The notes under the pieces are model-generated. The model worked only from the letters and a program-made list of their open reading frames with translations. It had not been told where the DNA came from and searched no databases. Below, piece by piece: positions 14,270-63,840 of a stretch of DNA of 64,000 bases. Each line of letters opens with the position of its first letter. Positions within the stretch are counted from its first letter, which is position 1. The position numbers were made by a program, and so were the translations under genes. The stretch lies in contig NZ_CP033068.1 of NCBI RefSeq assembly GCF_003668995.1, positions 2,542,001 through 2,606,000 of the forward strand. The letters run 5' to 3'. This DNA comes from Flavobacterium sp. 140616W15 (GTDB lineage Bacteria > Bacteroidota > Bacteroidia > Flavobacteriales > Flavobacteriaceae).

Positions 14270-14890
14270 ATGAGTTCATTAGAAGCTACCAAAGCTGTTT
14301 TGAAAACTGGAGAAGAAAAACTTATGTATAATGAAAAGTCTTTAAATTTCTCATTACTTGATTTTTGGCGTTGGAGTGTTTCAGATATTGTTAGTAATGC
14401 AACACGTGGCCGTTTAGCAGAATTTATTGTTGCAACAGCTGTAAATATTGATATAAAAGAAATTCGAGATGAATGGGGCGCCTATGATTTAGAAACACCT
14501 GACAAAATAAAAATTGAAATAAAATCTGCTGCATATATACAATCATGGGAACAAAAGAAACTATCGTCAATTAGTTTCAGTACAAAACTATCCCAGCCTT
14601 GGAATTCAGAAATTGATAAACGTTCAACAATACCAATTAGAAGTGCTGATGTATATGTTTTTTGCCTTTTACATCATTTAAACAAACCAACAATAAATCC
14701 TCTTAATTTAAATCATTGGGAGTTTTATGTCTTGTCAACTGAAGAATTGAATAATTACAAGCGAAGTCAACATTCAATAACATTAAATTCTTTAAAAAAA
14801 TTGACCAATTCGGTTGAATATGATAAATTAAAAAATGAAATAGAAGAAAAAAACAAATTAAACATTAAAATTGTATCTAGCATAATTTAA
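14270..14890 (+). CDS. putative PD-(D/E)xK-type nuclease-like protein
   Basis: A 206-aa soluble protein I cannot assign to a named family. Its central part looks like a restriction-endonuclease-like core: helix with NATRGRLAEFIVATAV (Glu near residue 50), then an EWGAYDLE Asp (about 70), then KIKIEIKSAA giving an ExK (about 81-85). The C-terminus is a Leu/Lys/Asn-rich helix. The same D...ExK order is the active site of PD-(D/E)xK nucleases. No methyltransferase or specificity subunit sits beside it. The start at 14270 is 6 nt after the glyoxalase stop. Confidence 0.55.
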   Translation: MSSLEATKAVLKTGEEKLMYNEKSLNFSLLDFWRWSVSDIVSNATRGRLAEFIVATAVNIDIKEIRDEWGAYDLETPDKIKIEIKSAAYIQSWEQKKLSSISFSTKLSQPWNSEIDKRSTIPIRSADVYVFCLLHHLNKPTINPLNLNHWEFYVLSTEELNNYKRSQHSITLNSLKKLTNSVEYDKLKNEIEEKNKLNIKIVSSII

Positions 14891-14910: not shown

Positions 14911-15303
14911 ATGTCAGGAGAAAAAGATTTAGACAAATTACTCAAAAGCATGAAACCAAAACATAATGTTGGCGATTATGTTTTTTGCACCGCACAAAGT
15001 CTTGAAAATATAGCTATCAAAGATATTGTAATGTCATTTACAGAAAGTGAAGGCATTACTTTAATCTTAAAAAAAGAAATTGCCGACGAGCTAAAACTTG
15101 ATTATTCAGTTGTAATGTCGTGGATAACACTTACTGTGCATTCCTCATTAGAAGCTGTAGGTTTAACTGCCGCTTTCGCGAAAGCGTTATCCGATAATAA
15201 CATTAGTTGTAATGTTGTAGCTGCATTTTATCACGACCACATTTTTGTAAACAAAAAAGACACAGACAACGCCATGACTATTTTAAATAAATTTTCAGAA
15301 TAG
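14911..15303 (+). CDS. ACT domain-containing protein
   Basis: A 130-aa protein of the small ACT (ACT_7/DUF2241-like) type. It has two betaalphabeta halves: VGDYVFCTAQSLENI...GITLILKKEIADEL and MSWITLTVHSSLEAVGLTAAFAKALSDNNISCNVVAAFYHDHIFV. ACT domains bind amino acids or similar ligands. It is a stand-alone sensor or binding protein without a fused enzyme. The codons for AFAKAL include the perfect 16-bp palindrome CGCTTTCGCGAAAGCG at 15171. Confidence 0.85.
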   Translation: MSGEKDLDKLLKSMKPKHNVGDYVFCTAQSLENIAIKDIVMSFTESEGITLILKKEIADELKLDYSVVMSWITLTVHSSLEAVGLTAAFAKALSDNNISCNVVAAFYHDHIFVNKKDTDNAMTILNKFSE

Positions 15304-26633: not shown

Positions 26634-26755
26634 TCCCGATAACTATCGGGACCAGCTATCCGCTATATCTTTTCCTGGCTAAAGAAGCCAGAAAAGGATA
26701 TCGCTTCTTCCGATAAATATCAGAACTGGGCTAAAACACTTGGGGCAACAAGGGC
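26634..26755. repeat. intergenic hairpin-rich repeat
   Basis: TCCCGATAACTATCGGGA (26634-26651, perfect 8-bp arms) is followed by ATCCGCTATATC and a second imperfect hairpin around TTTTCCTGGCT...AGCCAGAAAAGG (about 26668-26699). Similar elements are common between Flavobacterium genes by my recollection. No coding potential is seen. Confidence 0.55.
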
Positions 26756-59744: not shown

Positions 59745-61985
59745 TTAATCTATTAATAATTGAGTAACTGCAGCCGAATTGATTGCCCAATTTGCATCGT
59801 ACACCTCATCGGCAGTTGTTGTTTCTACAATTTCCAATCCTTGTGCTTCGGCTTTAAGAGTCAAAAGACTACCTATGTTTAATTTACTGCTTAGCTTAGA
59901 CAATAACGCTTTTACACCTTTATAATCTAATCCTTGTACAACTTGGCCTCCAAAAGTCATCTCTAACCAAATAATTTCTTTTTTGGCTACATCCAGCACT
60001 CCAAAAACTAGCCCTTTTGCAACATTTTGTGTTACTCGTACCTGATGATCTACACAAGATGGATCATAAGCAACTCCTGTTTTCTCAGATATTTTCATCG
60101 GATGTTTGCTATTCATCCAACCTACTATTAAATTTGGAGTTATACTTCCGTTACTATACGCATTACATGTAAAGGTTACAAACTTGGCATTTGCTTTTGC
60201 TAATTCGGCAATATTAATGTTTATATATTCAGCTGTTCCAATTTTATTCGGAATATATCTGATATCTCCACTATGCTTACAACCTGTGGTTTCTAATCGG
60301 CTAAAAGAACAAATATCGGCACTATTTTCATAAGCAATATGACAGCTTAAATCCATATCCAGATGTTGTGCAGGTAAATCATTACCCCATTGCATAAATA
60401 ATCGTACTTCATTACCTTCAATCGGGAAACGTGTTCCCATTAAAGCAACTGGTAAATCCTGAACAGTTTCGCTTCTATCTCCTATTGAAACTGGCATATT
60501 AAACAATTGTGGATCTATATAAATTGTCTTATTATCATTTGGCATAGCCGCAAATCTTTTCTTCATCGCCAAGACACACATATCTTCAATTTGCTTTTTC
60601 ATTGCATTCAATTGCTCATCAGTATATAATGATAATAATCGATTTGGTTCAATTCTTTTATTAGTACCTCCCAATGGTTTCACACTTCTTTGAATCGTTT
60701 TATCAAAATAATTTTGAGCATACATATTCAAAGTAAAAATCAAACGCGCTGGTACTTTATCTATAATTTCATTAAAATGTGCAATTGTTTCATCTGCTCC
60801 AAACCAAAGCATATTCGAAAATAACGAACGAGCGAATAATCCTGGGCGTTGTTTTAGCAAAGCAAAAGTTTTATCTGCATCTAATTTCAAACGAAAGTGA
60901 TTCAGATTGCCTTGCCAAACTTCGTAAGTCTGGTTATAGAAAGTATCTAATAAAACGGCTAATTTTTCAAAGCCTTTTCTTTTACTATATTCTGGTAAAC
61001 GTAACGCTCGTATAAAACGAACCCACATTCCTCTTTTTGGATGCATGATTTCGCAAGCAGCATCGGCGCTCATTTCAAGATTATTCAACCAATTGGCAAC
61101 CATCAAACATTCTTTTCTAGAATATTTAAGTTTTAAGCTCTCTTTAGCTGTCAACTTAGACTTAGCACTATTATCCAAGAAATGAGCCAAATGCTGATTG
61201 TTTTTTTCAACTCTTTGAATGATTGTTTTTGGATCTATAATTTGCAATAAATTGGTTTTCTTATACCATAAATACCTCAAAATATCTGTTGGCGTTTTAA
61301 AATATTGTGTTGCTTTTTCGGCTTGATCTTGTTCGATTAAAGCGTCGATAACAAGCATCAACGTTTCTTTCATTCCAATAGCAACATCTGGCAGTGGCAA
61401 ATGCGCAATTAAAGTTTTTAAACTTTCTACCTGAGTAGCATCCAAAGCTGTTTTTGATGTTAATAACGAAACAAAGAAATCATTCAACTCTTTTTCCGAC
61501 CATAACTCTAAAACTTTTAGTTTGCTTCCTTGTCCAAAATTTTCAATTTCTCCAAACTCAAATGGAGTTCCACAAAAAGGACAGCCATTATATCTTTCTA
61601 AAGGAAAAGTACCATTAGGAATAATATGTCCACATTGCAAAGTAATTCCGTTACTAGATTTAAAAAGATTAGCAAACAAAGTCACCATATGATCTAAAAT
61701 AGATTCTCCAGTAGGAACATTCCATTCTTTTACTAATGGTGTCCAATTTTTGTTAGTTCCTAAAACATCTTTTAAAACCTCCAAAACTTCAACTTTATAA
61801 TTTGGATTTACATTGTTTAAAGCATGTAATAACGATTCAGAAAAAGTGAATCCCAGTTTTGAAACGTTGGCAGCTAAAGCCAATGTTGTTCTAGATATTT
61901 TTTCAACATCATTTGCAATTAATTCTGTTGGAATAAAAATTGCATTCTGACGTAAACTTATTTTTAAAAATTCTTTTGTTTTCAT
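59745..61985 (-). CDS. RING-type/TerD-like protein (MXAN_6230/SCO0930-like)
   Basis: A 746-aa cytosolic protein. Near residues 117-138 a Cys/His cluster (CGHIIPNGTFPLERYNGCPFCG) looks like a RING-type or treble-clef zinc site. The middle (about 190-480) is helical, including an R-E-C-rich KLKYSRKECLMVANWLNNLEMSADAACEIMHPKRGMWVRFIRALRL. The C-terminal half (about 540-720) has TerD-like strands: EVRLFMQWGND, LDMDLSCHIAYENS, CKHSGDIRYIP and EYININIAEL. I believe it belongs to the MXAN_6230/SCO0930 RING-type family, predicted by comparative genomics to work with Ter stress systems. No ter genes flank it here. Confidence 0.75.
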   Translation of the reverse strand: MKTKEFLKISLRQNAIFIPTELIANDVEKISRTTLALAANVSKLGFTFSESLLHALNNVNPNYKVEVLEVLKDVLGTNKNWTPLVKEWNVPTGESILDHMVTLFANLFKSSNGITLQCGHIIPNGTFPLERYNGCPFCGTPFEFGEIENFGQGSKLKVLELWSEKELNDFFVSLLTSKTALDATQVESLKTLIAHLPLPDVAIGMKETLMLVIDALIEQDQAEKATQYFKTPTDILRYLWYKKTNLLQIIDPKTIIQRVEKNNQHLAHFLDNSAKSKLTAKESLKLKYSRKECLMVANWLNNLEMSADAACEIMHPKRGMWVRFIRALRLPEYSKRKGFEKLAVLLDTFYNQTYEVWQGNLNHFRLKLDADKTFALLKQRPGLFARSLFSNMLWFGADETIAHFNEIIDKVPARLIFTLNMYAQNYFDKTIQRSVKPLGGTNKRIEPNRLLSLYTDEQLNAMKKQIEDMCVLAMKKRFAAMPNDNKTIYIDPQLFNMPVSIGDRSETVQDLPVALMGTRFPIEGNEVRLFMQWGNDLPAQHLDMDLSCHIAYENSADICSFSRLETTGCKHSGDIRYIPNKIGTAEYININIAELAKANAKFVTFTCNAYSNGSITPNLIVGWMNSKHPMKISEKTGVAYDPSCVDHQVRVTQNVAKGLVFGVLDVAKKEIIWLEMTFGGQVVQGLDYKGVKALLSKLSSKLNIGSLLTLKAEAQGLEIVETTTADEVYDANWAINSAAVTQLLID

Positions 61986-62040
61986 TTTTAATGATTTTAA
62001 TAATTAGATAATTGTGTTTCTGGTTCTACCTAAAAGATTT

Positions 62041-62065
62041 TTGAAGTAAGAAACACTTGACCTTA
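62041..62065 (+). repeat. spaced motif, copy A, 3' of tRNA-Lys
   Basis: TTGAAGTAAG, six bases, then TTGACCTTA. This is the first of three same-orientation copies of GAAGTAA(G/C)-N6-TTGACCT clustered around and inside the tRNA-Lys gene. Confidence 0.75.
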
Positions 62066-62071
62066 ATTTTG

Positions 62072-62189
62072 TGGAGCAGGTGGGATTCGAACCCACGACC
62101 TGGGCATTAAAAGTGCTAGAAGTAAGTTAAGATTGACCTTTAGTGATAATTTCAAAACTAACCTGCTCTAACCGCTGAGCTACTGCCCC
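62072..62189 (-). tRNA. tRNA-Lys(UUU) interrupted in the anticodon stem
   Basis: On the minus strand all cloverleaf parts are present: acceptor GGGGCAG/CTGCTCC, D arm GCTC...GAGC, anticodon loop CTTTTAA (anticodon TTT) with 3' stem TGCCC, T arm GTGGG-TTCGAAT-CCCAC. The 5' anticodon strand is split into GG and GCA by 45 bp (62117-62161). Joining GG to GCA gives a perfect GGGCA/TGCCC stem, so an intact tRNA-Lys was interrupted. Introns in bacterial tRNAs are group I or II and far larger, so it is probably a pseudogene unless processed by an unknown route. Confidence 0.85.
62117..62161 (-). repeat. 45-bp insert in tRNA-Lys
   Basis: The insert splits the tRNA at stem position 28/29. On the minus strand it begins with a possible hairpin (TTAGT...ACTAA) and contains copy B of the spaced motif on its + strand: GAAGTAAG, six bases, TTGACCTT (62119-62140). 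No target duplication longer than one or two bases is visible. Confidence 0.8.
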
Positions 62190-62241
62190 ATTATTTATAA
62201 ATGTATTAATCGGTAATTGTCAAAGTATATCTTAAAGGTTA

Positions 62242-62266
62242 TTGAAGTAACTTTAACTTGACCTGA
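62242..62266 (+). repeat. spaced motif, copy C, 5' of tRNA-Lys
   Basis: TTGAAGTAAC, six bases (TTTAAC), then TTGACCTGA. The spacing is identical to copies A and B and the orientation is the same. It lies about 53 bp upstream of the tRNA 5' end. Confidence 0.75.
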
Positions 62267-62411
62267 TCAATTCATTTATTGTATTTAAAAGAACGTGTTT
62301 TTAATTTCTTAAGCAAATATTCAAATTAAAGTACGCAATTATTTTGCGTAGATTAAATTTATTTTCAATTAAGTAAAAAAAATCTTATATTGTGATTTAA
62401 AAATTATAAAC

Positions 62412-63840
62412 ATGGATAAAAATACTTACAAATTAATAAATTATATCTTATCTTTTCTTGTTTTTTTTTATTTTTGTTTGCTCCTGTAGCACTGAAGAAA
62501 CTACATCAAATCAAACCTTAGATGTTCAAACTTGGTTTGAAAAGTACGAAGCTGAAAGCCCAAATTTTGATTTATTTCAAGATTTAGAATACAATTGGAG
62601 TCAAGCCAAAATAACAACCTCAGAAGATGGGACTGAAACCATTATTGTTCCTATCGTTGAACGCAAAAGAAATTCATCAGAAATTTGGAAACAAAATTTG
62701 TATCTTTATAAGATAAGTGAAAATAATTATGAAGCAATAATCTTTGAGATATTTCCCGATAAAAAATCAAAAAAAAGTAGTCAATCAATAGATGATGGTG
62801 ATTTTAATGGATACATTAGTTCTTGGGATTTGAAAAATGGTTTTATAAAAGCGGCTCAATTTGAGAACAATAAAGTTGTTCAAGAAGGGATAATAGCAAT
62901 GTTATCATCTGCCAGTAACAATGAACAAAGCAAAATGGTAGCTGACCCTTGTTATTATTGTCCTGATGAAGAAGAACCAACTGGTGGTAGCGGTGGTTCT
63001 CCAATACCGCTTAGAGAGGTTATAATTACATCTCCATCAGCACCACCATCGTTCCCTCCTATGACTTTTATCCCGCGTGGCCTCTCATCTGGTGGTGTGG
63101 TTAATCCACCTGAATATACAAATCCTCCTCGAGGCGGTGGTGGTGGTGGTGGTTCAAGTTCTCCTTCAGTAGAACAAATAATAAATAACCTAACAGGCAA
63201 AGCAAAATGTTTGAACACTTTATTAGATGAAAGGGGAAGTTCTTTTGTAAAAAAACTACTAGCAAACTTCCAAGGACCAACATCTGAGTTTGATATTGAA
63301 ATCATTTCTAAAGACAAAGTAATTAATCCTGATAAGAATGGTATTCTTAGAGAAATAAATGGAAGAACAATCCATAGAGTGGGAAATAAGGTAATAACAA
63401 TTGAAATAAGTACATCAAAAACAAATGAAAATTCTTCTTTGGAAGCAGCAAGAACAATTTTACATGAATATATACATGCCGATCTTTTTAGAAAACTTAA
63501 TACAAAATCTGACGAAATTGGTGACTCAGGAGAAGATTTTAAAAAAACATATGATAAATATAAAAATGATCACGGGAACATTGCTACACTATATTTACAA
63601 AGTATGAAGACTGCATTAAAAGAATTTCATAAAGATGTCCTTACAAGTGATTATAATGGTTATAAAAAATATTTTGGAGAAGAACCAAGTGATTTATTTT
63701 ACGAAGCAATGGCATGGCACGGACTACAAGAAAGTGGTGTTGATGCATGGACATCTTTATCAGAAGAAAGAAAAAAGGAAATTGCTAATTTAGATAAAAG
63801 AAGTAACTTATTAACAAAAACAGTTACTTGCTCAAACTAA
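62412..63840 (+). CDS. lipoprotein metallopeptidase-like protein with signal out of frame at a T9 tract
   Basis: From ATG 62412 a signal-like start (MDKNTYKLINYILSFLV) runs into nine T residues (62461-62469) and then stops after 26 codons. In the next frame, open from TTG 62458 to 63840, coding continues as FFIFVCSCSTEE, an ideal lipobox. One T fewer would join them. The mature part has an N-terminal domain (about 20-150), a Pro/Gly-rich linker with a G7-S run (about 160-230), and a C-terminal domain with zinc motif ILHEYIHAD. The fold looks SprT-like or gluzincin-like. The function is unknown. Confidence 0.75.

Follow-up and report, generated by a model that had tools for sequence, protein, structure and literature searches.

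The window analysed here is a stretch of 64,000 nucleotides (nt) from Flavobacterium sp. 140616W15 (contig NZ_CP033068.1, positions 2,542,001 to 2,606,000), a genome of one contig and 4.94 Mb (G000). Our subject is an RNA resembling a transfer RNA (tRNA) but interrupted by 45 nt, which lies in the leader of a gene for a 746-residue protein. In the direction of that gene, the locus holds the following features:

62332..62350, minus strand: palindrome TACGCAAAATAATTGCGTA, then TTTGAATATTTG, which looks promoter-like by eye (genome pattern search)

62212..62263, minus strand: hairpin module 1, stem GUUAAAG/CUUUGAC, upstream of the tRNA-like RNA

62070..62189, minus strand: tRNA-like RNA with an insert between nt 28 and 29 (Rfam tRNA match at 62072-62189, 25-sequence alignment and covariance search)

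62117..62161, minus strand: the 45-nt insert, with the boundaries given by an earlier, sequence-only reading

62119..62158, minus strand: permuted leader hairpin within the insert, in the order second stem strand GUUUUGA, AAUUAUC, loop, GGUCAA, first stem strand UCUUAAC, UUACUUC

62006..62063, minus strand: hairpin module 2, stem GUGUUUC/GAAACAC, between the tRNA-like RNA and the start codon, which is 20 nt away

59745..61985, minus strand: gene for the 746-residue protein, with a RING-like site, a predicted TROVE/Ro60-like fold and a predicted TerD-like domain

The RNA at 62072-62189 (minus strand) forms a complete tRNA cloverleaf, in which 45 extra nt split positions 28 and 29. It covers the Rfam tRNA model fully (1-71) at 48.7 bits, against a gathering score of 29, and complete acceptor, D and T stems can be read from the sequence together with a 7-nt loop, CUUUUAA, in an anticodon-like arm. 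The parts follow the normal tRNA order, and the acceptor ends are open. The sequence-only reading had described the locus as a tRNA-Lys(UUU) gene with every cloverleaf element intact but split after position 28 by 45 nt, and it had noted that excising 62117-62161 restores a GGGCA/TGCCC anticodon stem; the interrupted cloverleaf and the restored stem are both confirmed. In the window RNA, G27 and G28 may pair inside the insert helix instead of with C42 and C43. The former arrangement has the lower computed energy in 25 of the 25 copies aligned below, and the latter has a precedent in the short stem of YrlA, a bacterial Y RNA. With default settings, ARAGORN called neither a tRNA nor a transfer-messenger RNA (tmRNA) here, and with introns allowed it chose another parse, a tRNA-Gln(ttg) with a 31-nt intron. 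The best clan match in a permissive Rfam scan was labelled tmRNA, at 32.3 bits under a cut-off of 47 bits, and with no ARAGORN tmRNA call we rejected this candidate.

The element is conserved beside its downstream gene. A search of 150 relatives with the downstream protein yielded 14 genomes. A survey of the order, covering 395 genomes, yielded 16 and contributed 13 more Flavobacterium loci as well as the distant genome G254. The resulting set comprises 27 Flavobacterium loci (L066-L092, including that of the window) that share the downstream gene. The full RNA with its insert is present in 25 of the 27; in L092 a divergent tRNA-like RNA takes its place, and hairpin modules are all that L079 has. 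In each of two loci, L072 and L090, there is also a second copy, whose anticodon region differs and lacks the CUUUUAA loop. The 25 full copies were aligned, with these second copies and the divergent L092 RNA left aside, at a mean column identity of 93%. The sequence-only reading had proposed looking for an intact form in relatives; the anticodon stem is interrupted in every one of the 25 copies. Standard pairs occupy 98.5% of cells in the cloverleaf and insert hairpin, compared with 33-48% in slid controls. Both-side changes occur at 6 pairs, located in the acceptor, T, anticodon-like and insert stems, where shuffles gave 2.4 +/- 1.0 and only 1 in 500 was as high, a covariation signal that may come partly from few lineages; the number of further pair types was not above shuffles in this alignment. 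Because 25 copies share the RNA and its insert, with compensatory changes, and a covariance search agrees, the window RNA is not a product of chance. An extra tRNA-like RNA with a long interior, unlike the aligned family, lies upstream of the leader in L068 (at about 4309, minus strand).

Co-occurrence of this RNA with the 746-residue protein is near-strict. Across 249 genomes of the genus, the covariance model gave 34 matches of at least 80 bits in 32 genomes, and the next best match reached at most 56.9 bits; 15 of the 32 genomes had contributed rows to the model and 17 had not. A protein profile run on the same genomes found the full-length protein in 34, as well as one weak match of 23 bits (G553). 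All 32 RNA-bearing genomes have the protein, and an RNA match of at least 80 bits is absent from all 214 genomes in which the protein profile matched nothing. Two genomes, G076 and G612, have the protein and no strong RNA match.

The comparative data also bear on the suggestion of the sequence-only reading that a tRNA was recently killed here, perhaps through recombinase damage at the anticodon arm, leaving a simple pseudogene. Two observations favour a tRNA broken by insertion: the insert stem has two mismatches in the window genome, and the count of tRNA-Lys(UUU) genes for which that reading had called gives five intact genes of identical sequence elsewhere in the genome (3010466-3011114 of G000). 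Yet the window RNA is no copy of those genes, sharing little with tRNA-Lys beyond general tRNA features, and its insert is structured and conserved in 25 genomes with compensatory changes. The pseudogene reading is thus largely refuted and must be considered very improbable, recombinase damage finds no support, and a mobile insertion was rejected on the conservation and structure of the insert.

The insert belongs to a family of hairpins that is repeated along the leader. Its type can be written as GGUCAA, a first stem strand, UUACUUC, the second stem strand and MAUUAYC, and each leader has two to six such modules. In the flanking hairpins, the 7-nt stem strand after GGUCAA pairs with a later 7-nt strand that precedes MAUUAYC; in the insert the strand order is the opposite, and we therefore read it as a permuted copy of the hairpin. 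The pattern GGTCAA-N(6-9)-TTACTTC has three matches in the genome, all in this leader and on its own, minus strand (the insert and one hairpin on each side). Its reversed control matched twice, so that the evidence lies in the clustering of the three matches within 221 nt and not in their number. The insert stem forms 5 of 7 pairs in the window genome and all 7 in 19 of 27 permuted copies (31 rows were listed, of which 4 were mis-assigned and set aside). Among 99 plain modules, 81 entered the pairing statistics, 17 without a resolved partner and one with an 8-nt stem being kept out; their mean of 6.58 pairs out of 7, compared with 4.02 for shuffled partners and 4.62 for the highest shuffle, is somewhat inflated because the partner search takes the best fit and the shuffle involves no new search. 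The stems both vary and covary, as in GUGUUUC/GAAACAC, GUGCUUC/GAAGCAC and GUACUUC/GAAGUAC, and some module loops in relatives contain T-arm-like hairpins.

The downstream protein is predicted to combine a RING site, a Ro60-like fold and a TerD domain. The RING-like site (~116-139) is weak; a helical fold like that of TROVE/Ro60 is predicted for residues ~160-485 and a TerD-like C-terminal domain for ~512-690, the latter agreeing with TerD when folds are compared. With the whole protein, a TerD chain was the sole Foldseek match at E < 0.001 among the matches listed, and Ro60 was not among the best 50 listed; the likeness to Ro60 was seen in a second structural aligner only. Pfam TROVE and vWA models gave no match to the protein at E up to 10, nor did a profile comparison with TROVE. 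The locus resembles the Ro60/Rsr (TROVE)-Y RNA particles and RYPER in the predicted protein fold and in the array of stem-loop RNAs beside the gene, but it differs in the TerD domain and weak RING site, in the absence of a Pfam vWA or TROVE match and of profile similarity, and in the flank of the leader stems, which is GGUCAA instead of the GUGYCGUA of TROVE-locus hairpins.

RNA-repair genes are linked to the leader in many relatives. An RNA ligase adjoins the gene in 18 of the 27 loci, within ~1.5 kilobases (kb) downstream: RtcB in 15 (in L082 as its first 19 residues only) and a T4-type ligase in 3. A longer stretch (L103) of the genome that contains L073 likewise includes a T4-type ligase, and Pfam confirmed three RtcB and one T4-type ligase in the sample tested. 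This arrangement recalls RNA-repair operons, in which RtcB or a T4-type ligase stands with PNK and RlaP (as in rsr-yrlBA-rtcBA of Salmonella). The differences are that the candidate regulator here is a WYL-type neighbour, no search for RtcR having been made, and that G000 has its ligase, PNKP and RlaP genes at a distance, ~22-34 kb from the window RNA. Neither a ligase nor the WYL pair described below lies near the window's own locus.

Those distant repair genes belong to a second locus, which has a TROVE gene:

G000 2638793-2640343 and downstream (L147 2016-16343), minus strand: TROVE gene and its downstream region

This gene is 35 kb from the window RNA and scores above the Pfam cut-off for TROVE, while the Ro60 vWA model falls slightly below its own. 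Downstream, on the same strand, lies an array of hairpins in which UUACUUC comes after a stem strand; genes for a T4-type RNA ligase, a PNKP and two RlaP proteins lie beyond it. Its neighbours include a WYL-domain protein and a 207-residue protein, and relatives of these that are 69-81% identical adjoin the leader in 8 of 10 neighbourhoods from other genomes; in L105 a 44% identical WYL protein stands alone, and L110 has neither. TROVE was found in 22 of the 249 genomes of the genus and occurs together with the 746-residue protein in 2 (G000 and G612), where ~3 would be expected from 22 and 34, so that mutual exclusion of the two is not shown.

A palindrome is shared by the two loci. The pattern TRCGCRNAATARNTGCGYA was built from four sites, and a search that allowed one mismatch gave 5 matches in the genome, all exact, on the minus strand and within 36 kb, compared with none for the reversed pattern. 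These sites precede the window leader, the leader of an SPFH gene, the RNA ligase, the Y RNA array and TROVE. The palindrome is found in 25 of the 27 leader loci and in 17 of the 22 TROVE loci.

The TROVE loci contain RNAs that are topologically related to the window RNA. Candidate hairpins were seen at 20 of the 22 loci scanned, some rows being chance matches, and at 15 loci the hairpin loop is a tRNA in circularly permuted order (3' half, closed acceptor, 5' half), whose acceptor pairing averages 6.53 of 7 compared with 5.13 for partners from other loci. Rfam YrlA matches below the cut-off (35-44 bits against 69) occur at 9 of the 20 hairpin-bearing loci, G000 not among them, and their alignments display the same permuted order; the G000 regions near TROVE showed no Rfam Y RNA match with E of 0.01 or less.

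With these elements in place, two further explanations can be weighed. The first is a short but true tRNA intron: an endonuclease of unknown identity would excise the 45 nt, and RtcB or the T4-type ligase would join the halves into a working tRNA. The stem left after excision would have 5 bp in 23 of the 25 copies, covariation is seen in the upper anticodon stem, and the ligases beside 18 of the 27 loci would make excision feasible, although none of the findings calls for it. On the other hand, the anticodon in the loop depends on the species (UUU in 17 of 25, UCU in 7 and GUU in 1), which argues against decoding, and the copies lack the conserved UUU and continuous anticodon stem of a functional tRNA-Lys. 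The five intact tRNA-Lys genes, the second copies in L072 and L090, the existence of a permuted version, and the occurrence of the same hairpin outside any tRNA in the same leader, with related hairpins at TROVE loci, all weigh against an intron as well. An insert of 45 nt is too short for the core of a group I or group II intron. No Rfam intron family matched the window RNA at its gathering score, and both intron types were rejected, in line with the sequence-only reading, which had held the insert to be below their size. We consider a true intron unlikely; the further idea of that reading, a tolerance of the 45 nt that ordinary tRNA introns fail to explain, is supported.

The second explanation is a leader that acts in cis only, its elements regulating translation or decay of the downstream mRNA through an autoregulatory or T-box-like effect, with no separate RNA. 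It would suit the position of the module array, which in the 27 loci is on the strand of the gene and within ~750 nt of its start codon, and of module 2 in the window leader, so close to the start. Against it, the related hairpins of the G000 TROVE locus sit between TROVE and the ligase, where separate Y RNAs would be expected, and the acceptor and T arms would resemble a substrate of tRNA end processing. A purely cis-acting role is, in our estimation, no likelier than the intron.

YrlA-type Y RNAs mimic tRNA in permuted form, and the purpose of this mimicry is not settled. Like the window RNA, YrlA (RF02553; PDB 6CU1) has a tRNA-like domain with D, T and acceptor arms, has its Y stem at the place of the anticodon arm, and adjoins genes for a Ro60-type protein and RNA repair. 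According to PMC11472068, the bacterial Y RNA 6CU1 can be superposed on tRNA, from which it differs by a circular permutation. In YrlA a loop closes the acceptor; the window RNA, in contrast, follows the normal order of a tRNA, leaves its acceptor ends open and has an anticodon-like arm. By permutation and by Rfam, in which RF02553 gave no match at E up to 1, the window RNA is therefore not a member of YrlA, although its D and T arms do give it a tRNA-like domain. Scored in halves, the window RNA reached 27 with tRNA-Lys and 34 with the closest among 42 host tRNA sequences (drawn from 31 loci, leaving aside the odd tRNA-like genes in L062 and L064); its scores with the permuted Y RNAs rose to 41, and 7 of 15 of these outscored every host tRNA. 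Given these scores, the permuted tRNAs of the TROVE loci and the order of YrlA, we interpret the window RNA as what a YrlA-type chimera would be without the permutation. It is probably an un-permuted chimera of Y RNA and tRNA, the presumed partner of the Ro60-like protein in an RNA-repair regulon.

How such a system would work is suggested by analogy with Ro60 and YrlA. The 746-residue protein would bind the hairpin modules of the leader, and the tRNA body, its ends perhaps processed like those of a tRNA, would present tRNA surfaces to a partner such as a nuclease, a modification enzyme, a ligase or a decoyed anticodon nuclease. The system might form part of an RNA-repair response that is switched on via the shared palindrome, with the WYL protein as a candidate regulator. 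For YrlA, PMC7790460 proposes a competitive-inhibitor role for the tRNA-like domain, no cleavage of which was seen there, and PMC8394870 describes YrlA as a tether to PNPase and a substrate of DusA and TruB. More tentatively, the un-permuted chimera could be the bait or fuse of a Ro60-like RNA-protein system, an open tRNA mimic that couples tRNA damage to the expression of repair genes. Its ends would mature like those of a tRNA, its anticodon loop (mostly UUU or UCU) would be offered to anticodon nucleases, and cleavage or capture of the RNA would alter the grip of the protein on the leader; the two circular permutations of one chimera would then coexist in one genome, one for each of two Ro60-like proteins. 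More generally, if the window RNA is such a chimera, a normal-order, open-ended RNA and a permuted Y RNA in one genome, each tied to its own Ro60-like protein and apparently under one regulon, offer a natural comparison of which tRNA features are important. It would also account for a class of genes that annotation would label broken or intron-bearing tRNAs, and it would give a handle on large RING-TerD proteins of unassigned function. A literature search, with most subscription papers beyond reach, found no description of the window RNA in the text available.

Within 10 kb upstream of the window leader are an SPFH gene, an exonuclease gene, odd tRNA-like genes (with a YrlA match below threshold) and a WGR-DUF6493 gene. 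The SPFH gene, with a tRNA-like leader of its own, is ~4 kb from the window RNA, and it is this leader that the palindrome precedes. A tRNA-like molecule beside SPFH/Band-7 genes was reportedly described by Burroughs and Aravind in 2016, and the window RNA may fall within that description. In L065, tRNA-like genes resembling Asp (GTC) and Ile (AAT) (15057-15221 and 14471-14541, minus strand) and a permuted YrlA-like tRNA below threshold stand before an SPFH gene. The relative G004 has a longer run of T-arm-bearing tRNA-like genes between its WGR and SPFH genes (L110 4797-7519, plus strand), two of which resemble ordinary tRNAs by eye. The idea that the odd genes form a phage tRNA island was set aside once the SPFH, TROVE and ligase context emerged, and a plasmid search with the leader gave no match. 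The only RtcB gene found in G000 (354652-355731, plus strand) is far from the window RNA and adjoins an open reading frame that looks by eye like release factor H; the 20 kb around it contain neither module nor T-arm matches. A divergently transcribed gene immediately upstream of the leader (window 62458-63840, plus strand) encodes a predicted protein with an SprT-like match below threshold and no relative in the 10 other neighbourhoods compared. Elsewhere in the window, a Flavo-1 RNA (RF01705) lies at 26645-26736 on the minus strand, above its gathering score.
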